Assembly (NCBI RefSeq): GCF_026278345.1 | Contig: NZ_CP111085.1 | Coordinates: forward strand, 1,004,001-1,068,000 | Source: Tellurirhabdus rosea | Lineage (GTDB): Bacteria > Bacteroidota > Bacteroidia > Cytophagales > Spirosomataceae | Direction of reading: 5' to 3' | DNA length: 64,000 bases | Shown here: positions 7,214 to 53,630 of the stretch, piece after piece | Layout of the letters: each line of letters begins with the position of its first letter | Position numbering within the stretch: position 1 is the first letter of the stretch | The notes under the pieces: generated by a model | What the model was told of the DNA's origin: nothing | Databases searched by the model: none | The model's input: the letters and a program-made list of their open reading frames with translations, nothing else | Position numbers and translations under genes: made by a program

Positions 7214-7981
7214 ATGGAATTATACTACCGCCAGGTCGGCGACACCGGCCCGGCCATCCTGATTCTTCACGGCGTCTTCGGTTCGTCGGACAACTGGCTG
7301 ACCATTTCCAAAACCATTGCCGACCAGGGCTACCGGGTTTTTCTGCTCGACCAGCGCAATCACGGCCGTTCGCCCCGCAGCGAGGTGTTTGATTACGAAT
7401 CGATGGGCCTCGACCTGCTGGAATTTATTCAGAAGCACCAGTTGGATAAGCCCATTCTCATCGGCCATTCGATGGGCGGAAAAGTGGTCATGCAGTTCGC
7501 AATGGACCATCCGGACCAGTTCAGCAAGCTCGTCATTGTCGATATTGCCCCCAAATTTTACCCGGTTCATCACGGCGAAATCCTGCGCGGGCTTTCCGCC
7601 ATTCCGCTGGCGACGCTCAAAAGTCGCAACGAAGCCGACGCGATTCTGAAGGAGTACGAGCCTTCGGCCACCGTCCGGCAATTTCTGCTGAAAAACCTTT
7701 ACCGCAACGAGCAGGGGCAGTTCGACTGGCGGCTGAATCTGCCCGTCATCGAACGTGAGATTCACGGGGTGGGCGAAGAACTGAGTCACCCGCGTACCGT
7801 CACGGAGCCGACGCTGTTTATCCGGGGCGTCAATTCGGGTTATATCCGGGACGAAGACATTCCGGGCATTCAGAAATTATTCCCCAACGTCAAGGTCGAA
7901 ACCATTCCCGATGCCGGCCACTGGGTGCAGGCCGAACAGCCGGAACTCTTTGTCGAGGCGCTGATTAACTTTATCGTTTAA
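7214..7981 (+). CDS. Alpha/beta-fold hydrolase, YbfF-like esterase
   Basis: A 255-aa cytoplasmic hydrolase. The oxyanion loop is ILHGVFGSSDNW (~17-29), the nucleophile elbow is GHSMGG with Ser86, and the catalytic histidine is at ~236 in DAGHWVQAEQPE. The pattern DQRNHGRSP (~46-54) is characteristic of the YbfF/PNPLA-unrelated acyl-CoA thioesterase/esterase group. Its length fits the family. The substrate is probably a short acyl ester or thioester, but that is not decided by the sequence. The last codons and the stop lie inside the arm of the palindrome that follows. Confidence 0.88.
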   Translation: MELYYRQVGDTGPAILILHGVFGSSDNWLTISKTIADQGYRVFLLDQRNHGRSPRSEVFDYESMGLDLLEFIQKHQLDKPILIGHSMGGKVVMQFAMDHPDQFSKLVIVDIAPKFYPVHHGEILRGLSAIPLATLKSRNEADAILKEYEPSATVRQFLLKNLYRNEQGQFDWRLNLPVIEREIHGVGEELSHPRTVTEPTLFIRGVNSGYIRDEDIPGIQKLFPNVKVETIPDAGHWVQAEQPELFVEALINFIV

Positions 7982-8093
7982 GGATTATGGTTTAAAGTTT
8001 ATGGTTCAGAGTTTGCCGCTGCGCTTGCTTCGCCCTTTATTTTCATTGAGGCAACGCAACTTTAAACCTTAAACATTAAACCTTAAACGATAA
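7970..8093. repeat. Intergenic palindrome, TTTAAGG word type
   Basis: A left arm beginning TTATCGTTTAAGG at the very end of the hydrolase gene (its final codons and TAA stop) is mirrored by a right arm of TTAAACCTTAAAC units that ends with CCTTAAACGATAA at about 8080-8092. The ends are perfectly complementary over ~13 bp and the interior is imperfect. The central part (around 8018-8056) is GC-richer. The element occupies nearly the entire gap before the methyltransferase gene. Confidence 0.8.
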
Positions 8094-10305: not shown

Positions 10306-11052
10306 ATGAAACTGCTCCGTCACCTGCCCAACGCCATGACCTGCGGCAATCTGCTGTGCGGGTGTCTGGGAATTCTGGCCGTTTTTGAACACGATCTGAT
10401 GCGGGCGTCCCTGCTCATTTTTCTGGCCGCCGCCCTGGATTTCGGGGACGGGTTCGTGGCGCGTCTGGTCAGAGCACAGTCGGCCATCGGCAAAGAACTG
10501 GATTCGCTGGCCGACTGCGTCACCTTCGGCGTACTGCCCGCGTTCATCGTGTATGCCTTTCTGGTGCCGGATACCGAAGCGATCCAACGGCTTCGGCAGG
10601 TGTCCGGCGCCGCAAGTGAAACCTATTCCACCCTGCTTTTGCCCGGAGGCTATTCCGCTGCGTACCTGGCGTTTCTGCTGGCCATTTTTTCGGCGCTCCG
10701 GCTGGCCAAGTTCAACGTCGATACGCGGCAGACCGACTCGTTCATCGGCGTTCCGACCCCGGCCAACGCGCTGGTCGTTGCGGCGATGCCGTTCATTGTC
10801 GCTTACAACCCCGCTTTTGCCGGACTGATTCTTCACCCGCTGGTGCAGCTCGGGTATGTCGTGGTCATGTCGTACCTGCTGACCTCCGAACTGCCCTTGT
10901 TTGCGCTTAAGTTCAAGACGTTCGGCTGGTCGGAGAACCGCATTAAATACATTTTTCTGCTATTTTCCGCGCTGCTTCTCTTATTTTTGCAGTTCGCAGC
11001 CGTACCGCTGGTGATTTTCCTGTACATCGCACTTTCACTTTTTTCAAAATGA
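10306..11052 (+). CDS. pssA: CDP-diacylglycerol--serine O-phosphatidyltransferase
   Basis: A 248-aa integral membrane enzyme making phosphatidylserine, the precursor of phosphatidylethanolamine. The CDP-alcohol phosphotransferase signature DG(x2)AR(x8)G(x3)D(x3)D is complete from DGFVAR to DSLAD (~47-69). Several hydrophobic helices follow. The length is typical of the type II enzyme. It starts 3 nt after the TSUP gene. The TGA stop codon lies inside the left arm of the intergenic palindrome at 11048-11139. Confidence 0.95.
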   Translation: MKLLRHLPNAMTCGNLLCGCLGILAVFEHDLMRASLLIFLAAALDFGDGFVARLVRAQSAIGKELDSLADCVTFGVLPAFIVYAFLVPDTEAIQRLRQVSGAASETYSTLLLPGGYSAAYLAFLLAIFSALRLAKFNVDTRQTDSFIGVPTPANALVVAAMPFIVAYNPAFAGLILHPLVQLGYVVVMSYLLTSELPLFALKFKTFGWSENRIKYIFLLFSALLLLFLQFAAVPLVIFLYIALSLFSK

Positions 11053-11139
11053 TTGAATGTTGAATGACTGAATGACTGGCTCCGCCCCGGTGCATGAAAC
11101 AGCGAAGCCAGTCATTCAGTCATTCAACATTCAATCATT
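11048..11139. repeat. Intergenic palindrome, GAATGACT word type (34-bp perfect arms)
   Basis: Left arm 11048-11081 and right arm 11106-11139 are perfect reverse complements over 34 bp, separated by a 24-nt loop. The arms are strings of GAATG/GAATGACT-like words; the inner ends read GGCT next to CCGC and GCGA, part of the shared core stem. The left arm contains the pssA stop codon, and the right arm ends 10 nt before the purS start. Confidence 0.93.
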
Positions 11140-11149
11140 CAATAGTAAG

Positions 11150-11398
11150 ATGACTTATATCGCTGAAATCAACGTAATGCCCCAGAAGGAGATTCTGGAC
11201 CCGCAGGGCAAGGCCGTGAAACTGGGCCTGCACAACCTTCACATCGACAACGTCGGCGACGTCCGCATTGGCAAGCACATCCGCCTGGAAGTGGAAGCGG
11301 AATCCGAATCCGCCGCCCGCGAAACCGTCGAAGCCGCCTGCAAGCAGCTGCTCGCCAACCTGATCATGGAGTCATACGAGTACACGATTCACCAGTAG
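11150..11398 (+). CDS. purS: Phosphoribosylformylglycinamidine synthase subunit PurS
   Basis: An 82-aa protein beginning MTYIAEINVMPQKEILDPQG, the conserved PurS opening, followed by VGDVRIGKHIRLEVE (~37-51). PurS forms a complex with PurL and PurQ in the fourth step of purine synthesis, bridging the two subunits. The length fits the family. The ATG at 11150 is chosen over an in-frame upstream ATG at 11072 because the extra 26 residues would be translated from the palindrome. It is isolated from purL and purQ here and is flanked on both sides by palindromes of the same class. Confidence 0.93.
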   Translation: MTYIAEINVMPQKEILDPQGKAVKLGLHNLHIDNVGDVRIGKHIRLEVEAESESAARETVEAACKQLLANLIMESYEYTIHQ

Positions 11399-11400
11399 GG

Positions 11401-11486
11401 AATGATTGAATGACTGAATGACTGAATGACTGACTCCGCTCCAGTGCGTGAAACAGCGGAGCCAGTCATTCAATCATTCAGTCATT
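11401..11486. repeat. Intergenic palindrome, GAATGACT word type
   Basis: Arms 11409-11440 and 11455-11486 (32 nt each) pair with only two mismatches; both mismatches become G-U pairs in a minus-strand transcript. The core is GACTCCGCT/AGCGGAGCC with a 14-nt loop. It lies immediately after the purS stop codon and closely resembles the element on the other side of purS, so purS is bracketed by two copies. Confidence 0.9.
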
Positions 11487-11553: not shown

Positions 11554-12555
11554 ATGATTTATTCAACCATAACGGGGCTGGGGTATTATGTCCCGGAACA
11601 TGTCGTCACGAACGAGGACCTGACGAGTTATATGGAAACCTCGGACGAATGGATTCGGGAACGGACGGGAATTCAGGAACGCCGCTACTTTACCTACGGA
11701 AAAGAAACCAATGCCAGTATGGCCGCCGCGGCCTCACGCATGGCCCTGGAACGGGCCGAAGTAACGGCCAAAGAAGTGGACCTGATCGTTTATGCGACCA
11801 TCACGCCGGACTACTTTTTTCCGGGTTCCGGCTTTCTGATGCAGCGCGAACTGGGCATGGAAGGCATCGGCGTGATCGACATCCGTGACCAGTGCTCGGG
11901 CTTCGTGTATGCCCTCTCGATTGCCGACCAGTTCATCAAATCCGGCATGTACAAAACCATTCTGGTGGTCGGAGCCGAGATTCAGTCTACCTGGATCAAT
12001 AAAAGCACGGAAGGCCGCGGCGTAGCGGTGATCTTCGGCGACGGAGCCGGGGCCGCCGTTGTCCGGGCCACCGATGACGCCGAACACCGCATTTTGTCCA
12101 CCCACCTTCATGCAGACGGGCGCTTTGCGGAGGATTTGTACGTTAAAGACCCCGGCAGCAGCCGCCCGGACCGCGCCGCCACGAAGCAGATGGTGGACGA
12201 AGGCGGCTTCGATGTGGTGATGAACGGCAACGCCGTGTTCAAACACGCTGTCGTGCGCTTTACCGAAGTTATTCACGAGGGTTTGCAGGCCAACGGCTTC
12301 TCGCCCGAAGATATTTCGCTGCTGGTGCCCCACCAGGCCAACGTCCGGATCTCGGAATACGTGCGCAATCAGCTTGGCCTCCCCGAAGACCGCGTCATCA
12401 GCAATATTCACAAATACGGCAATACTACGGCCGCATCTATCCCCATCGCCCTCACGGAAGCCTGGGAACAGGGCCGCGTCAAACCCGGCGACCTGGTCTG
12501 CCTCGCCGCCTTCGGCAGCGGATTCACGTGGGCGTCAGCGCTTATTAAGTGGTAG
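11554..12555 (+). CDS. fabH: 3-oxoacyl-ACP synthase III family (FabH-like)
   Basis: A 333-aa condensing enzyme of the thiolase fold. The catalytic triad of FabH is present: Cys114 (IRDQCSGF), His260 (LVPHQANVR) and Asn290 (HKYGNTTAAS). EWIRERTGI (~32-40) is the usual N-terminal signature. FabH starts fatty acid synthesis by condensing acyl-CoA with malonyl-ACP; some Bacteroidota have several paralogues, so this copy could serve a special lipid. The ATG at 11554 is used, because the in-frame ATG at 11518 lies inside the terminator hairpin. The gene ends just before another palindrome. Confidence 0.9.
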   Translation: MIYSTITGLGYYVPEHVVTNEDLTSYMETSDEWIRERTGIQERRYFTYGKETNASMAAAASRMALERAEVTAKEVDLIVYATITPDYFFPGSGFLMQRELGMEGIGVIDIRDQCSGFVYALSIADQFIKSGMYKTILVVGAEIQSTWINKSTEGRGVAVIFGDGAGAAVVRATDDAEHRILSTHLHADGRFAEDLYVKDPGSSRPDRAATKQMVDEGGFDVVMNGNAVFKHAVVRFTEVIHEGLQANGFSPEDISLLVPHQANVRISEYVRNQLGLPEDRVISNIHKYGNTTAASIPIALTEAWEQGRVKPGDLVCLAAFGSGFTWASALIKW

Positions 12556-12560
12556 AATGG

Positions 12561-12639
12561 TTGAATTTTGAATGATAGATAGGTTGGCTTCGCAGTACCA
12601 GGATTAGCGAAGCCAACCTATCTATCATTCAAAATTCAA
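12561..12639. repeat. Convergent intergenic palindrome, 33-bp perfect arms
   Basis: Left arm 12561-12593 and right arm 12607-12639 are perfect reverse complements with a 13-nt loop. The inner stem GGCTTCGC/GCGAAGCC is the fully paired T-A form of the family core. The right arm supplies the TGA stop codon of the CoA-binding protein on the minus strand (12636-12638), so the element sits exactly between two convergent coding regions. Confidence 0.95.
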
Positions 12640-13001
12640 TAATTCCCAATCGACAGCATCACCAGCGTGCAGGCTTCAATGGGTTCGATGCCTTCTTGTT
12701 TCAGTTCCTGCTCAAATTGCGGATTTTCCGTTCCGGGGTTGAAAATGACCCGGCGCGGCTTCAGGTTTTTAATGTACTCGTAGTAGCCCGGCTGGTTCTT
12801 TGCCGAAACGTATAACGTCACAGTATCGACGTCCGTCAGTTCGGGCAGTCCTTTCTGAATCGGGTTTCCGGCCACACTTCCTTCCCGCAGTCCCACCTGT
12901 TCAATCGCGTGGCCGTGCCGCACCAGACTGTGCGCCGCCCGGTTGGCGTACCGGTCAGGCTTCTCGGATGCCCCAATAATCAACGTTTTTCCTCTACTCA
13001 T
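12636..13001 (-). CDS. CoA-binding domain protein (YccU-like)
   Basis: A 121-aa Rossmann-fold protein of the CoA_binding family. KTLIIGASEKPDRYANRAA (~5-23) is the nucleotide-binding start, and VSAKNQPGYYEYI with RVIFNPGTEN (~86-92) are the conserved later motifs. Such small proteins bind coenzyme A or NAD-like ligands; their cellular role is unclear. It is transcribed convergently to fabH, and its stop codon lies in the palindrome arm. Confidence 0.85.
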   Translation of the reverse strand: MSRGKTLIIGASEKPDRYANRAAHSLVRHGHAIEQVGLREGSVAGNPIQKGLPELTDVDTVTLYVSAKNQPGYYEYIKNLKPRRVIFNPGTENPQFEQELKQEGIEPIEACTLVMLSIGNY

Positions 13002-31515: not shown

Positions 31516-31617
31516 GAATGATTGAATGTTGAATGATTGAATGACTGAATAGCTCCGCCAAGTTATGATTTGCGAAGCTATTCAGTCATTCAGTCAATCA
31601 ATCATTCAGTCATTCAA
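31516..31617. repeat. Convergent intergenic palindrome, GAATGACT word type
   Basis: The inner 17 bp (TGAATGACTGAATAGCT and its complement) are perfect, the outer parts are imperfect copies of the same words. The core reads AGCTCCGC...GCGAAGCT, with one mismatch that is a G-U pair in the minus transcript. The right arm supplies the TGA stop codon of the SIS gene (31610-31612). Confidence 0.9.
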
Positions 31618-34644: not shown

Positions 34645-34726
34645 GGTTTAACGTTGAAGGTTTAACGTGGAAGGCATAGCCGCGCAGCGTCCAACGTTAA
34701 ACCTTCAACCTTCAACTTTCAACGTT
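34645..34726. repeat. Intergenic palindrome, AACGTTGAAGG word type
   Basis: Left words GGTTTAACGTTGAAGGTTTA are mirrored by CCAACGTTAAACCTTCAAC and CTTCAACTTTCAACGTT. GTTGAAGGTTTAACGTGG pairs with its partner save for one extra base. The loop is GC-rich (GCATAGCCGCGCAGCG). The element fills the 106-nt gap between two minus-strand genes. Confidence 0.8.
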
Positions 34727-38570: not shown

Positions 38571-38682
38571 GGAAGAGTTTAAGGTTTATAGTTTGGAGCT
38601 TTTGACAGACGGACAAAGGGTGACCAATTGGCTATCACGCATTTAACTATAAACTCTAAACCATAAACCCTAAACTCTTCTC
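38571..38682. repeat. Intergenic palindrome, TTTAAGG word type
   Basis: The left arm GAAGAGTTTAAGGTTTATAG... (38572 on) is mirrored by AACTATAAACTCTAAACCATAAACCCTAAACTCTTC (given here in outline) ending about 38680. Most differences are A/G transitions. The middle (38604-38644) is unrelated GC-richer sequence. It lies between two plus-strand genes. Confidence 0.75.
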
Positions 38683-39459: not shown

Positions 39460-39633
39460 GGGAATTATACAAAAGCGTAAAGCGGAATCGGCCTGGTGGC
39501 GGTTCCGCTTTTTGTTGCCAGCCATTTATTGAAGTTACTTGTCTTTGACTATACACACTTTATTCTGGCCGTGTAGTCTCCTCACACTTACGTCTAGGAT
39601 GAATAAAGCGGCTGGGCAGCGCAAAGCCGTTTC

Positions 39634-39704
39634 TGTCGCGTTGCGACCCAATGTTTGTAGAAAAACAGGCAGGAAGGTACCCGGCGTGCCGTGGGTACGC
39701 CACC
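39634..39704 (+). repeat. Dispersed ~70-bp repeat, copy 1
   Basis: Begins TGTCGCGTTGCGACCCAATG and continues TTTGTAG, ends GTGCCGTGGGTACGCCACC. It shares both ends with copies 2 and 3; the middle ~25 bp is variable. It is arranged head-to-head with copy 2, leaving 14 nt between them, so the pair forms a ~154-bp palindrome. Confidence 0.85.
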
Positions 39705-39718
39705 CTACGCTTACAAAG

Positions 39719-39787
39719 GTGGCGTACCTACGGCACACTCAACGCCCCCTCCATTTAGGGCTACAAACATTGGGTCGCTACGCGACG
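39719..39787 (-). repeat. Dispersed ~70-bp repeat, copy 2 (inverted)
   Basis: On the minus strand it begins GTCGCGTAGCGACCCAATG, passes TTTGTAG and GGGCGTTGAG, and ends GTGCCGTAGGTACGCCACC. Nearly identical in its conserved ends to copies 1 and 3, and closer to copy 3 in the middle (GGCGTTGAG shared). Confidence 0.87.
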
Positions 39788-40695: not shown

Positions 40696-41760
40696 ATGGA
40701 TTTACTCGAACTTGCTCAGGACCCCGTGAAGGTCGCCAAAGCAGTTAAATTGCAATACGTCAGCGATTCCATGCCGGGCATCACGCGCCAGCCGGAAGGC
40801 GACCGATTTGTCTACCACGACCCGAAAGGGGAAGAAATAACGGACGAAGCCACGCTGGAACGCATTCGCCAGATGGCCCTGCCGCCAGCCTGGGAACGGG
40901 TCTGGATTTGCCCAAAACCAAACGGACACCTGCAGGCGACGGGTATTGACACCAAAAACCGGAAACAGTACCGCTACCACGCTTCCTGGAACGCCATTCG
41001 CAGCGAAACGAAGTTTTTCCGCATGATCGCTTTCGGCGAACGACTGCCCCAGCTCCGCGAACGGCTCTACAAGGACCTGAAACAACGGGAACTGACGAAA
41101 GAGAAAGTCATCGCCATTGCCCTGAGCGTGATGGAACAGACGCTGATCCGGATCGGCAATGCGGCCTACGAAAAGGAGTACGGCTCCTACGGCCTGACGA
41201 CCCTTAAGGATAAACACGTGCAGGTCGGGACGGAAGCCATCAAGTTTCGCTTCAAAGGAAAGAAAGGCATCTTCCACGACATCAAACTACAGGACCGGCG
41301 GCTCGCCCGGCTGGTGAAAGCCTGCCGCGATATTCCCGGCAAGGAGCTTTTTCAGTACTACGACGAGAACGGCGAACACCGCAGCATCGACTCCGGTATG
41401 GTGAACGACTACCTGCGCGAAACCACCGGGGAGGAGTTTTCGGCCAAAGACTTCCGGACCTGGGCCGGCACGGTCAACGCCCTGCGCATGCTGTCGGAAC
41501 TGGAACCCTGCGAAACGGAAAAGGAGCTGAAAAAGAACGTCAATACCGTCCTTGAAAACGTGGCGCACAAGCTGGGCAATACCCGGACCGTTTGCCGCAA
41601 ATACTACGTCCATCCGCAGGTGCTCGAAGCCTACGAGTGCCAGGACCTCAACCCCTATTTCAAACGCATGTCCCGCTTCCGCCAAACCAGCCAGTACGGC
41701 CTCGACTCAGTAGAAAAGCTGCTGCTGGCGTTTTTGAAGGACAGAGTTAAGGTTGAATGA
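40696..41760 (+). CDS. DNA topoisomerase IB
   Basis: A 354-aa type IB topoisomerase related to the poxvirus enzyme. N-terminal DNA-binding domain (~25-105, PPAWERVWICPKPNGHLQATG), then the catalytic domain with RYHASWNAIRSETKF (~95-109), the Arg/Lys residues in YGSYGLTTLKDKHV (~166-179) and FRTWAGTVNAL (~256-266), and the nucleophile tyrosine Tyr304 in CRKYYVHPQVL. All catalytic positions appear intact. It relaxes supercoils. The TGA stop codon lies at the start of the palindrome that follows. Confidence 0.95.
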   Translation: MDLLELAQDPVKVAKAVKLQYVSDSMPGITRQPEGDRFVYHDPKGEEITDEATLERIRQMALPPAWERVWICPKPNGHLQATGIDTKNRKQYRYHASWNAIRSETKFFRMIAFGERLPQLRERLYKDLKQRELTKEKVIAIALSVMEQTLIRIGNAAYEKEYGSYGLTTLKDKHVQVGTEAIKFRFKGKKGIFHDIKLQDRRLARLVKACRDIPGKELFQYYDENGEHRSIDSGMVNDYLRETTGEEFSAKDFRTWAGTVNALRMLSELEPCETEKELKKNVNTVLENVAHKLGNTRTVCRKYYVHPQVLEAYECQDLNPYFKRMSRFRQTSQYGLDSVEKLLLAFLKDRVKVE

Positions 41761-41858
41761 CTGAATGGTTGAATGACTGAATAGCTTTGCAAATTTTGAC
41801 ACTGCCAAACTATTCAGTCATTCAGTCAATCAATCATTCAGTCATTCAACATTCAATC
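41751..41858. repeat. Convergent intergenic palindrome, GAATGACT word type
   Basis: GGTTGAATGACTGAATGG... on the left is mirrored by TTCAGTCATTCAACATTCAA on the right. The inner core AGCTTTGC/GCCAAACT is a diverged version of the family core. The left arm supplies the TGA stop of the topoisomerase gene (41758-41760), and the right arm ends 1-2 nt before the stop codon of the YetF-like gene. Confidence 0.88.
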
Positions 41859-42820: not shown

Positions 42821-42929
42821 AGTTATGAGTTATGAGTTATGAGTCTGAACAGGAATAGAAACTGAATGTTTGTACGTACGCTAACTCTTAACTCATAACT
42901 CTTAATTCATAACTCTTAATTCATAACTA
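42821..42929. repeat. Intergenic palindrome, TTATGAG word type
   Basis: AGTTATGAGTTATGAGTTAT on the left is mirrored by blocks of AACTCATAACTCTTAATTCA on the right, with a ~40-nt centre. The right arm supplies the TAG stop codon of the TolC gene (42927-42929). Confidence 0.8.
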
Positions 42930-46043: not shown

Positions 46044-46106
46044 GTCAACGCTTTTTGGGGTGAACAGGGCTTTGTTGCCTGGACCCGGAAACGCCAAGCC
46101 CCTTTT

Positions 46107-46175
46107 TGTCGCGTAGCGCCCCAATGTTTGTAGCCTTCAAATGGGTGGCGTTGAGCGTGCCGTAGGTACGCTACC
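46107..46175 (+). repeat. Dispersed ~70-bp repeat, copy 3
   Basis: Begins TGTCGCGTAGCGCCCCAATG, then TTTGTAG, GGCGTTGAG, and ends GTGCCGTAGGTACGCTACC. Matches copies 1 and 2 at 39634-39787; unlike them it stands alone, but within an outer 11-bp inverted repeat. Confidence 0.87.
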
Positions 46176-46271
46176 TTCACGCGAAAGGTCACCGGGCCCT
46201 CGAAGGCGACGAACGAACCCAAAAAACCGAGCAACAAAGCCGGTAAGAATTACGAAAAGCCGTTATAAATT

Positions 46272-46373
46272 AAGCGTTATGAGTTTTGAGTCAGCACCGC
46301 TATTTTTGAATACCTTACAACCTCCGCACACAACTCTTAACTCATAACTCCTAACTCCTAACTCTTAACTCAA
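46272..46373. repeat. Intergenic palindrome, TTATGAG word type
   Basis: CGTTATGAGTTTTGAGTC on the left is mirrored by AACTCTTAACTCATAACTCC and further ACTCCTAACTCTTAACTC units on the right, with a ~40-nt centre. The right arm ends 1 nt before the ATG of the ion channel, so its mRNA has no Shine-Dalgarno at all. Confidence 0.78.
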
Positions 46374-46374
46374 A

Positions 46375-47208
46375 ATGCCCACCGTCGCCCGCCGTCCCAA
46401 GACCTCTGTTCGAACGCCTTTGCGGAAGACGTTTTACCGGATTCTGGAAACGTCGGCGGGGCATCGGCGGGGCTGGAGTCAGGTCTTCAACGGGCTTCTG
46501 ATCACCATTATCTCGCTGAATTCCGTTGCCATTGTGCTGCATACCGTACCGGAGCTGAACCAGCGGTACGAGCAGGTCTTTTACGACTTCGAACTGTTTT
46601 CGGTTACCTTTTTTACTCTTGAGTATCTGCTCCGGGTCTGGGTCTGCGTCGAAAATGACCGATACAGCCATCCGGTCTGGGGCCGGGTCCGCTACCTGTT
46701 TTCGACGGCCGCCATCATCGACTTTCTGGCCATTTTTCCGTTTTACTTCACCCTGTTTGCTACCGATCTGGCCATTGTCCGGATTCTTCGGCTGTTCCGG
46801 ATTTTCCGGCTCTTTCGGGTTACGCGGTATTCGCACGCCTTCAAGGTGATTCGGAATGCGGTGGAGGACAAGAAGGAGGAACTGATTCTAAGCCTGGTGT
46901 TTGTGCTGTTCATGCTCATCATTGTGTCCAGCCTGATGTATTACGTCGAGCACTCGGCCCAGCCCGACAAGTTTTCGAGCATTCCTGCTACCATGTGGTG
47001 GGGCATCAGCGCCATGACGACGGTCGGCTACGGCGATATGCACCCGATTACGCCGCTGGGAAAAGTGCTCGGCGGTCTGGCGGCTATTCTCGGCATCGGC
47101 CTTTTCGCCCTCCCGACCGGTATTCTGGTGTCGGGCTTTACGGAGCAGATTCGCACGCAGAAAGCCCCCACCAAACATCGCTGCCCGCATTGCGGAAAAG
47201 AATACTGA
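46375..47208 (+). CDS. Voltage-gated-type potassium channel
   Basis: A 277-aa inner-membrane channel. Six helices: S1-S3 (~45-65, 78-98, 118-135), a voltage-sensor S4 with regular arginines (VRILRLFRIFRLFRV, ~140-154), pore helix, the selectivity filter TTVGYGDMHP (~217-226), and S6 (LGGLAAILGIGLFALPTGILVSGF). The C-terminus CPHCGKEY has one CxxC pair. The layout is that of a Kv-type channel; its gating is unknown. It begins directly at the end of a palindrome. Confidence 0.92.
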   Translation: MPTVARRPKTSVRTPLRKTFYRILETSAGHRRGWSQVFNGLLITIISLNSVAIVLHTVPELNQRYEQVFYDFELFSVTFFTLEYLLRVWVCVENDRYSHPVWGRVRYLFSTAAIIDFLAIFPFYFTLFATDLAIVRILRLFRIFRLFRVTRYSHAFKVIRNAVEDKKEELILSLVFVLFMLIIVSSLMYYVEHSAQPDKFSSIPATMWWGISAMTTVGYGDMHPITPLGKVLGGLAAILGIGLFALPTGILVSGFTEQIRTQKAPTKHRCPHCGKEY

Positions 47209-49303: not shown

Positions 49304-49349
49304 ATTTAACGTAGCTCCGCTTCTCACCATTATACGTTCAACGTTCAAC
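49304..49349. repeat. Short palindrome between PGM1-related gene and ispD
   Basis: TTTAACGTAGCTCCGC on the left and TATACGTTCAACGTTCAACC on the right, with AACGTA/TACGTT complementary. Weaker than the others but with the same words and core fragment (GCTCCGC). The right arm supplies the TGA stop of ispD (49338-49340). Confidence 0.6.
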
Positions 49350-50028: not shown

Positions 50029-50113
50029 GGAGGAAAGGAGGAAGGGGAGGAAAAGAGCAAGGTTATCCGAATGGCTATACCTTGCTCTTTTCCTCCCCTT
50101 CCTCCTTTCCTCC
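50029..50113. repeat. Intergenic palindrome, GGAGGAA word type (35-bp perfect arms)
   Basis: Left arm 50029-50063 and right arm 50079-50113 are perfect reverse complements over 35 bp with a 15-nt loop. The left arm is purine-only except near the centre, the right arm pyrimidine. The right arm supplies the first base of the queA stop codon (plus 50113-50115). It lies between queA and ispD on the minus strand. Confidence 0.93.
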
Positions 50114-51156
50114 TAAAGAATCAACATCGCGTCTCCGTAGCTGAAGAAGCGGTATTTCTCCCGGATGGCTTCCTCGTAGGCTTTCATCACCAGATCGTAT
50201 CCGCCAAAGGCGCAGGTCATCATGATGAGAATAGACTCCGGAAGGTGGAAGTTGGTCAGCAGCGAGTTGGCAATTTTAAATTCGTAAGGCGGGAAGATGA
50301 ACTTGTCCGTCCAGCCCTCCACCCCTTTCAGGCGGCTGTTGGCCGAAACCGAAGACTCCACCGCTTTCAGGGACGTTGTGCCTACGGCGCAGACCCGTCG
50401 GCCGTTGTCCAGCGCGTCGTTGACGAGTTTGGCCGAAGGGTCCGTGATGATGTAATTCTCCGAATCCGTCTTGTGCTTGGTCAGGTCCTCCACATCCACC
50501 GGGCGGAAGGTGCCGAGTCCGACGTGCAGAGTGATGGGCGCGAAGTGGATGCCTTTGATTTCCATGCGCTTCATGATGGCTTTCGTGAAGTGCATCCCGG
50601 CGGTCGGTGCGGCCACGGCTCCGATGTGTTCGGCGAAGATAGTCTGGTACCGGTCGCGGTCGGCGTCCTCCGTTTTGCGGCGGATTTCGCGGGGCAGCGG
50701 GGTTTCACCCAGTTCATCGACAGCCTTCATGAATTCCTCATGCGAGCCTTCGAAAAGGAACCGTATGGTCCGGCCGCGCGAGGTCGTGTTGTCGATCACT
50801 TCCGCAACCAGGTCACTGTCACCGAAATACAATTTGTTGCCGACACGGATTTTCCGGGCGGGATCAACCAGCACATCCCACAGACGCATTTCCCGGTTCA
50901 GTTCGCGAAGCAGGAAAACCTCGATTTTGGCACCGGTTTTTTCCTTGTTTCCGTACAGGCGCGCCGGAAAAACTTTGGTGTTGTTGATGACCATGACATC
51001 ACCGTCGTCGAAGTACGACAGGATATCCGAGAATTGCTTATGTTCAATGGTCTTGGTCTTACGATCAACCACCATCAGCCGGGCCTCCCCACGGTCCGGC
51101 GGGTATAGTGCAACAAGACTTTGGGGCAAGTCAAACTTGAATTCGGACAGTTTCAT
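50113..51156 (-). CDS. queA: S-adenosylmethionine:tRNA ribosyltransferase-isomerase
   Basis: A 347-aa enzyme of queuosine synthesis, transferring the ribosyl of SAM to preQ1 in t[23 protein letters not shown] (~9-28), [16 protein letters not shown] (~54-69), [15 protein letters not shown] (~187-201) and [14 protein letters not shown] (~225-238), ending with TSLKAVESS and [14 protein letters not shown], are all QueA motifs. The length fits. A TATTTTTG -7 box lies upstream on the minus strand (51192-51199). Confidence 0.95.
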
Positions 51157-51909: not shown

Positions 51910-52884
51910 ATGAAAAGAACCTGGTACTCCACGGCCTTACTCGTCACGGCAATCTCCGGCCTTACCGCCTGCGAAGACCATCCGGCCAGCCCCAACGCCG
52001 GTTTTCCGGAGCGAATCGAATTTGTGGCACCGCGCCAGTACCCCGAAGGCATTGCCTATTCGGCCCAGCTGAACCGGTTTGTCATTACGTCGCTGACGCA
52101 GGGAAAGCTGGGCACCGTGGATGTCAACGGCAAGTATGAAGACCTGATTGCCCCGCCCGAACTCATCAGCGGGGTGGGCGTTAAAGTTGCCGACGGGCGG
52201 ATTCTGGTCTGCAACAGCGACAACGGCGTTTCGACCAAAAGTTCGCCACAAACGGCCACCAAAACGGCCGAACTGCTGGTGATCAACATCGGCTCCCGCC
52301 AGTTGGAACGCCGGGTTGACCTCGACAACCTGCTGCCGAACGTCAACCACTTCGCCAACGACCTCGCCATCGCTCCTGATGGCACCGTTTACGTCACCGA
52401 TTCCTTCGCGCCGGTGGTCTACCGCGTTACCCGCGACGGGCAGGCGAGCATTCTGGTCAACGATTCCCGGTTTGCCAGCACCAGTTTTGGTCTGAACGGC
52501 ATCGTGTACCACCCGAACGGCTATCTGATCGTGGTGAAAACGAGCGAAGGCAAGCTCTTCAAAATTGACCTTCAGAACAACAACGCCATCTCGGAAGTGA
52601 GCGGCGTTACTCTTCAGGGCGGCGACGGCATGACGCTGGTCGGCAATGACCTGTACATCGTCACCGGCAGCGGCAGCCAGGTTTCGCAGGTCCGCAGCAC
52701 CAACAACTGGCAGTCGGCCTCGCTCGTGAAAAACGACACCCAGGGCTATTTCCAGGCGACCACCAACACGCCCGTGAACGGTCGCATCTACACGCTCAAC
52801 GCCCGCATCGGCGAAATCCAGCAGGCAATGGGTAACCCCGCGCTGCTGCAATCGAATAACTACAGCATTCAGGCGTTTAAGTGA
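51910..52884 (+). CDS. Beta-propeller (SMP-30/NHL-like) lipoprotein
   Basis: A 324-aa exported protein. The signal STALLVTAISGLTAC (Cys21) is a lipobox. The rest is a six- or seven-blade propeller with repeats such as YPEGIAYSAQLNRFVITSL, NDLAIAPDGTVYVTDSF and LNGIVYHPNGYLIVVK, resembling SMP-30/gluconolactonase and NHL-type propellers. The metal ligands of SMP-30 are not clear, so enzymatic activity is unproven. A convergent palindrome follows and its left arm begins within the TGA stop codon. Confidence 0.85.
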   Translation: MKRTWYSTALLVTAISGLTACEDHPASPNAGFPERIEFVAPRQYPEGIAYSAQLNRFVITSLTQGKLGTVDVNGKYEDLIAPPELISGVGVKVADGRILVCNSDNGVSTKSSPQTATKTAELLVINIGSRQLERRVDLDNLLPNVNHFANDLAIAPDGTVYVTDSFAPVVYRVTRDGQASILVNDSRFASTSFGLNGIVYHPNGYLIVVKTSEGKLFKIDLQNNNAISEVSGVTLQGGDGMTLVGNDLYIVTGSGSQVSQVRSTNNWQSASLVKNDTQGYFQATTNTPVNGRIYTLNARIGEIQQAMGNPALLQSNNYSIQAFK

Positions 52885-52983
52885 ATGATTGAATTTTGAA
52901 TGATTGAATGATTGATTGGCTCCGCCAGTTTCTGCATTGATGCGGAGCCAATCAATTATTCAATCGTTCAAAATTCAATCATT
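52884..52983. repeat. Convergent intergenic palindrome, 42-nt arms
   Basis: Arms 52884-52925 and 52942-52983 pair over 42 nt with two mismatches and a 16-nt loop. The core GGCTCCGC/GCGGAGCC is the fully paired C-G form. It begins on the last base of the plus-strand stop codon and ends on the first base of the minus-strand stop codon, filling the gap exactly. Confidence 0.95.
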
Positions 52984-53630
52984 TACAAAACCTTCACCAT
53001 AATATCCTTATAAAGCACCTTGCTGGCCGGGTCGTGGCCCTGGATGGCGATGGTGCCGTGGTTCAGCACTTTCCGGACGCTGCCTCCTTTGCGGTCGGGG
53101 TTGGTGGCTTCGGTGTATTCGTTAATGACTTTGTCGTTGACCTTGATCGTCACCTTGTTGTCTTTCACGATGATGTGCTGGGTGTACCACTCGTTGTCTT
53201 TTACAAACACGTCCCGCACGTCCTGAAAAGCGTAAACGCTGCCCGTTTTCCGCCAGTCTTCGTGGGTCTGGTTCACCTGAATTTCGTGCCCGACGTTCGG
53301 CCAGCCTTTTTCCTGGTAAGCCGTGTGAATGAACATGCCGGAGTTGGCCCCGGGTGCCGTTTTGATGGTCGCTTTCCACTCAAAATTCTTGAAATCGTGG
53401 TTACCGATAGGGCCTTCGTAGAACAGGTGGGCCCGTTCGCCGTAAACGACCAGCGCGCCGTCCTGAATGGTGAAGGTGGACGGATTTTCGGCGGCTTTCC
53501 AGCCGGTAAAGGTCTTGCCGTCAAATATGCGAACCCAGCCGTCTTTGGTAGCCGACGAGTTTGTGTTTTTGGAACCGGCGCAACCGGCCAGCAGGGCGGT
53601 TGCCATCAGGAAGGTAAACAGGCGTTTCAT
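52983..53630 (-). CDS. DUF1080 (3-keto-disaccharide hydrolase-like) lipoprotein
   Basis: A 215-aa lipoprotein: signal MKRLFTFLMATALLAGCAG with Cys17. The DUF1080 beta-jelly-roll follows with WVRIFDGKTFTGWKAAEN (~33-50), DFKNFEWKATIKTAPGANSGMFI (~84-106), VGHEIQVNQTHE and AIQGHDPASKVLYKDIMVK. Family members act on glycosides, including 3-keto sugars. The ATG at 53628-53630 gives a proper signal; upstream in-frame residues are arginine-rich and unlike a signal. Its stop codon abuts a palindrome. Confidence 0.9.
   Translation of the reverse strand: MKRLFTFLMATALLAGCAGSKNTNSSATKDGWVRIFDGKTFTGWKAAENPSTFTIQDGALVVYGERAHLFYEGPIGNHDFKNFEWKATIKTAPGANSGMFIHTAYQEKGWPNVGHEIQVNQTHEDWRKTGSVYAFQDVRDVFVKDNEWYTQHIIVKDNKVTIKVNDKVINEYTEATNPDRKGGSVRKVLNHGTIAIQGHDPASKVLYKDIMVKVL

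Follow-up and report, generated by a model that had tools for sequence, protein, structure and literature searches.

Word palindromes at gene 3′ ends and the spelling of stop codons in Tellurirhabdus rosea

The STRR heptamers of cyanobacteria are tandem degenerate heptamers that lie between genes and are generally not palindromic. TAACTGA heptamer repeats, known from Beggiatoaceae, Cyanobacteria and some Bacteroidetes, carry stop codons in three frames and overlap the ends of upstream genes (PMC4679880). In enterobacteria (Erwinia), fusion of the RU-1 element to the 3′ end of a gene deletes the native stop codon and gives the protein a new C terminus and a new stop (PMC2759123), and QMITE1 and QMITE2 of Coxiella burnetii overlap the C termini of functional genes by 1–50 bp, with protein masses not significantly altered (PMC5896051). 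REPs of Escherichia coli that lie within 15 nt of a stop codon have been reported to lower translation (PMC12306157). Stop donation by repeats is thus already known from RU-1, the QMITEs and the TAACTGA repeats; our literature search found no description, in Spirosomataceae, of the palindromes considered here, which are built from short tandem words. Here we report an analysis of these word palindromes in Tellurirhabdus rosea and its relatives. The elements lie at the 3′ ends of genes, the spelling of the adjoining stop codon follows the word family, and protein ends are for the most part unchanged.

The window is a 64,000-nt stretch (G000:C1:1004001-1068000) of the single 5.58-Mb T. rosea chromosome. 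Its inverted repeats were catalogued, and the nine stop codons named by the original prediction were examined directly. Comparisons used 1.264 Mb of T. rosea and 0.8 Mb of a second species of the genus (G001), in both cases under a quarter of the genome, with G001 as the single source of every congener comparison; the nearest named relatives include Rudanella, Larkinella, Runella, Spirosoma and Dyadobacter, consistent with a position in the Spirosomataceae. Genes were called with a hexamer-trained caller written for the analysis, the word-family labels are likewise our own, and palindromes were detected as inverted repeats with ungapped arms and a score of at least 18. The orthologue set of the two congeners comprises 117 reciprocal best pairs within the sampled DNA.

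The T. rosea sample contains 163 palindromes, compared with 27 mirror-repeat controls, and none of the 163 in this 1.264 Mb is intragenic. A palindrome is present at 64/181 gene pairs that converge, at 90/675 in tandem and at 5/145 that diverge (divergent pairs versus the rest, p=9e-7); only 5 of the 159 classified sites are divergent gaps, which places the elements mostly at the 3′ ends of genes. Their density is about 129 per Mb in T. rosea and 21 per Mb in the 0.8 Mb of G001, where no word-family palindrome was found. The distribution along the T. rosea chromosome looks uneven. The forward-strand TGAATGA-word matches listed (exact or with one mismatch) leave out the interval from about 1.57 to 3.13 Mb, and stretches sampled at 1.9, 2.1, 3.5 and 3.7 Mb contained no palindromes.

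The words are 7–8 nt long and stand in tandem between genes, as in intergenic heptamer repeats. Their arrangement is not the direct one of such repeats: TGAATGA words paired within 120 nt occurred 25 times in forward-then-reverse order and never in the opposite order. The pattern TGAATGACTGAATGAC, with at most two mismatches, was found 290 and 291 times on the two T. rosea strands (reversed pattern, 3 and 6). A core, GCTYCGC...GCGRAGC, is common to several word families and occurs 47 times in the T. rosea sample and once in that of G001; in related genera, one word family can be replaced by another in the same gap. The idea that every family has been selected for an inward-pointing stop-bearing strand was discarded: the TGAATGA and AAGTCG words are oriented in this manner, the GTTTAA and CGCAGATT words the opposite way. 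Also recurring near gene ends (L284, L293, L330 and L335) is a palindrome of a different, compact kind, AAATGCCATATCT-nnn-AGATATGGCATTT; L335 holds three copies, inside one of which both convergent genes end QP* (asterisk, stop codon).

According to the original prediction, nine stop codons of the window lie in or at the end of a palindrome. Five are inside an arm, those of pssA, the CoA-binding gene, topoisomerase IB, the propeller gene and the esterase gene, whereas the remaining four are edge cases or lie outside (Table 1): queA overlaps its palindrome by a single base, the SIS and TolC stops fall only among the outer words, and no palindrome at ispD reaches the threshold. The stops of fabH and of the gene convergent to the propeller gene were missing from that list. 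The accompanying statement that the words carry stops in every frame describes the TGAATGA arms well, 93% of which close all three frames, but only 67% of the GAGTTAA/TTATGAG arms and 20% of the TTTAAGG arms do so, and the word of the GGAGGAAA element at queA is without any stop codon.

Table 1 Palindromes and adjoining stop codons in the window
Feature	Position	Strand	Remark
TTTAAGG-word palindrome	7971..8093		Esterase end
Esterase stop	7979-7981		Inside arm 7971-8001
TGAATGA-word palindrome, core GGCTCCGC..GCGAAGCC	11048..11139		Includes pssA stop
pssA stop	11050-11052		Inside arm 11048-11085
Second TGAATGA palindrome	11401..11486		Begins 3 nt past purS stop 11396-11398
fabH stop	12553-12555	+	Last base is first base of palindrome 12555..12645
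TGAATGA-word palindrome	12555..12645		Occupies convergent fabH/CoA-binding gap
CoA-binding stop	12636-12638	-	Wholly within arm 12607-12645
TGAATGA-word array and palindrome	31516..31617		Outer words hold SIS stop
SIS stop	31610-31612	-	In outer word array, beyond best ungapped arm
TTTAAGG/GTTGAAG-word palindrome	34646..34716		Separates two minus-strand genes
TTTAAGG-word palindrome	38572..38680		
TGAATGA-word palindrome	41744..41858		Topoisomerase IB end
Topoisomerase IB stop	41758-41760		In arm 41749-41782, as are last codons KVE
TTATGAG/GAGTTAA-word palindrome	42821..42928		TolC stop at edge
TolC stop	42927-42929	-	Outer word array, beyond best ungapped arm
TTATGAG-word palindrome	46262..46375		
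ispD stop	49338-49340	-	No palindrome reaching threshold
GGAGGAAA-word palindrome	50029..50113		Between ispD and queA
queA stop	50113-50115	-	Shares one base (50113) with palindrome arm
TGAATGA-word palindrome	52881..52986		Two convergent stops in same register
Propeller stop	52882-52884	+	Inside arm 52881-52925
Stop of gene convergent to propeller	52983-52985	-	Inside palindrome 52881..52986

The purS gene (11150-11398) is bracketed by the palindromes at 11048-11139 and 11401-11486, which are 354 bp apart and 91% alike over 66 nt including the loop; inversion or deletion of purS could follow from such a pair.

Across the T. rosea sample, 218–220 gene ends face a palindrome, and the arm enters the gene at 64 of them. 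Stop overlap is found at 52/127 ends facing word palindromes (41%) and at 12/91 facing non-word hairpins (13%; p=9e-6). Because the elements fill a median of 71% of their gap, uniform placement alone would give about 54 overlaps among 218 ends, and tight packing thus accounts for much of the observed overlap. TGA is used at 20/34 ends adjoined by TGAATGA words and at 3/29 adjoined by GAGTTAA words (p=7e-5), compared with 270/844 palindrome-free genes. Stop spelling follows the word family, and the elements therefore supply stop letters, as the original prediction had proposed, and often write the stop codon of the neighbouring gene. At TGAATGA elements, TGA is enriched also at stops a few bases outside the arm, and part of the association may stem from gaps that favour TGA or from ungapped arms that were cut short. 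In Larkinella, the SIS and TolC stops are TGA at a GAGTTAA-type element and mostly TAA or TAG at other families.

The overlap reaches into coding sequence at 36/218 facing ends, where the arm covers one sense codon or more, and the endings ND*, NE*, S*, VKN* and IKS* recur among the arm-coded ends. In 8/23 close convergent pairs, the palindrome centre lies midway between the two stops, against 1.3 expected. A further idea, that convergent genes on one palindrome would share the same stop codon, was discarded, as 11/23 such pairs and 53/118 pairs without a palindrome do so. The median distance to the next in-frame stop is 5 codons beside TGAATGA elements and 7 beside GAGTTAA elements, compared with 24 at palindrome-free genes.

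The proteins of the window differ in how constant their ends are. The last codons of fabH (ALIKW*), the CoA-binding gene (GxY*) and queA (AMLI[LI]*) are constant across relatives, with a single fabH excepted, whichever word family occupies the adjoining gap, and equally where that gap holds a simple terminator or is empty; the QueA end YGD[AV]MLI[LI] is invariant in the 30 ends compared. The propeller protein ends SIQxFK in both congeners, with TAA as the stop in G001, and its near orthologues end SIxxF[KR]*. The pssA stop is TGA in T. rosea and TAG in G001, with one residue different. By contrast, the tails of SIS, topoisomerase IB, TolC, the esterase and ispD vary among relatives whether or not an element is present, that of topoisomerase IB in all of them. 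The esterase ends FIV* in T. rosea and FLES* in G001; SIS orthologues carry 1–6 extra residues where T. rosea has none; and TolC, which ends STIF* in T. rosea and STISQELR*, SQILQQTK* or similar in relatives, is trimmed by about 4–5 residues. The exceptional fabH is that of Larkinella rosea (L045/L066), in which the stop TGA is replaced by GGA and seven added codons, GKLTNDH, lead to the TGA of an ATTGACC-word element. In G070 (L048), a relative of L. rosea whose element is related, the fabH TGA is at the normal place. We infer a stop loss in L. rosea, since all other relatives stop normally. The element served as a backup stop in this gene, which fits the shorter median distance to the next in-frame stop at TGAATGA and GAGTTAA ends.

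How far do such changes go? The original prediction held that insertion at gene ends could trim and re-terminate proteins; taken as a rule, this would make C termini diverge between relatives. A minority of T. rosea genes does have element-coded tails, such as IKS* (L286:18573-19121) and VKN* (L320:17766-18488), or has lost 4–7 residues: L322:78-452 ends WND*, 6 residues short of the WNNTPAGKR* of G001, L330:10525-11202 is 7 residues shorter than in G001, and SIS and TolC are also shorter than their orthologues. However, 20/25 overlapped genes and 64/78 palindrome-free genes end within 2 residues of their G001 orthologues, so the C termini of overlapped genes do not differ more than usual, and the conserved ends of fabH (that of L. 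rosea aside), the CoA-binding gene and QueA are untouched, with the same last codons and stop position where no element is present, the very outcome that the original prediction had named as its refutation. Trimming as the usual outcome is thus distinctly unlikely. The direction of causation could also be the reverse, with elements arising or inserting where a native end already resembles a word, so that stop spelling would be the cause rather than the result. In relatives, SIS ends like TTTATTGAA, as well as AGTTAA ends in Larkinella, do resemble the words found at those sites in other species. Yet all eight overlapped TGA stops that have a G001 orthologue, a small number, are TAA or TAG in G001, and the propeller and pssA stops are TAA or TAG in relatives, which makes seeding by native ends an unlikely origin of the spelling.

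A second group of alternatives concerns the nature of the palindromes. Ordinary bidirectional intrinsic terminators near stops, with incidental overlap, would account for the preference for convergent gaps and 3′ ends and for the near exclusion from divergent gaps. Stems kept as RNA hairpins are expected to carry more G-U than A-C mismatches in the sense strand, and terminator-like hairpins in the same two genomes do so, with 47 G-T and 8 A-C. The word palindromes do not: in tandem contexts their stems have 75 G-T and 86 A-C mismatches (difference, p=2.7e-7). Furthermore, a T run of at least 5 follows the hairpin at just 8/128 word ends, and the words are common genome-wide in T. rosea, whereas the 0.8-Mb sample of G001 holds no word family. 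A terminator reading is therefore improbable. In the queA/ispD gap of eight Larkinella species (L204-L211), one inherited ACAAGAG-word palindrome fills nearly all of the space separating the queA stop from the ispD start, and at three pairs both partners have changed with pairing retained; arm-to-arm copying or selection, on RNA for instance, could each suffice to explain these. A RAYT (Y1) transposase could also have mobilised the palindromes as REP sequences, for there are two Y1 matches in T. rosea and none in G001, where word palindromes were not found. However, one of the two, the Y1 gene in L392, is interrupted by two in-frame stops. The hairpins beside it, clustered at about 2050-2350, belong to a GTAG-tagged REP family of its own, GTCGCGTAGCGAC...GTTTGTAG, and are not word palindromes; no word palindrome that was read carries a tag of the GTTTGTAG type. 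Mobilisation by RAYT is thus highly improbable. GTAG-tagged REP hairpins of this RAYT kind occur in the window itself, at 39622-39786 and 46095-46133. As to MITE features, symmetric ends were seen but no precise empty site, and the gap TGA-ACGGG-TTA of G053, which is short, has diverged too far to reveal a target-site duplication.

The explanation that we prefer, and consider probable, is that the word palindromes are made and kept at the DNA level and extend through the gap to the last codon that cannot be spared, respelling the stop. Palindromes of 7- or 8-base words, many of them on the GCTYCGC...GCGRAGC core, lie in the gap downstream of a gene, and their border with the gene would be drawn by selection for an intact protein end. 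Most words include a TGA, TAA or TAG, so it is often the outermost one that forms the stop codon or swaps letters within it. The usual outcome is a respelt stop at an unchanged position, followed by backup stops a few codons on; occasionally, up to about 7 dispensable terminal residues are exchanged or lost. The likeness of the arms would arise at the DNA level, through copying between them or through insertion, rather than from selection for an RNA hairpin. A bolder version, in which arm-to-arm copying continually rewrites gene 3′ borders and the local word family, rather than the gene, thereby sets both stop choice and the last few residues across this bacterial family, we put forward tentatively and regard as rather unlikely.

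The link between repeats and stop spelling is real and measurable, and its consequence for proteins is ordinary. Abundant intergenic repeats help to set stop spelling and nearby backup stops while leaving proteins nearly untouched, so stop-codon usage, 3′-end annotation and small C-terminal differences in these genomes should be interpreted with repeats in mind; the wobble-bias count provides a simple separator of DNA-level palindromes from RNA terminators. Compared with the described systems, the word palindromes resemble the TAACTGA repeats as intergenic tandem heptamers that overlap upstream stop codons, but those are mostly direct and point toward a start codon, whereas the T. rosea words are palindromic, lie at 3′ ends and form several families. 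STRR are likewise tandem intergenic heptamers, generally without the palindromic arrangement. RU-1 shares stop donation, but is a MITE-like unit of 127 bp with a fixed sequence and adds extensions of tens of residues. The QMITEs also overlap gene ends with overall protein size judged unchanged, and differ in being MITEs, which carry terminal inverted repeats and direct repeats. REPs are extragenic palindromes too, some of them near stop codons, but they are 20–40 bp long with a consensus, and many are GTAG- or CGTC-tagged (PMC12306157, PMC3733652); about 11% of E. coli REPs are reported to lie within 15 nt of a stop (PMC12306157), compared with 111/128 word ends in T. rosea that are this near or overlap it. 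What distinguishes the elements of T. rosea and its relatives is the palindromic arrangement, the existence of several families, the replacement of one family by another at a single gap, and the spelling of the stop codon by family.
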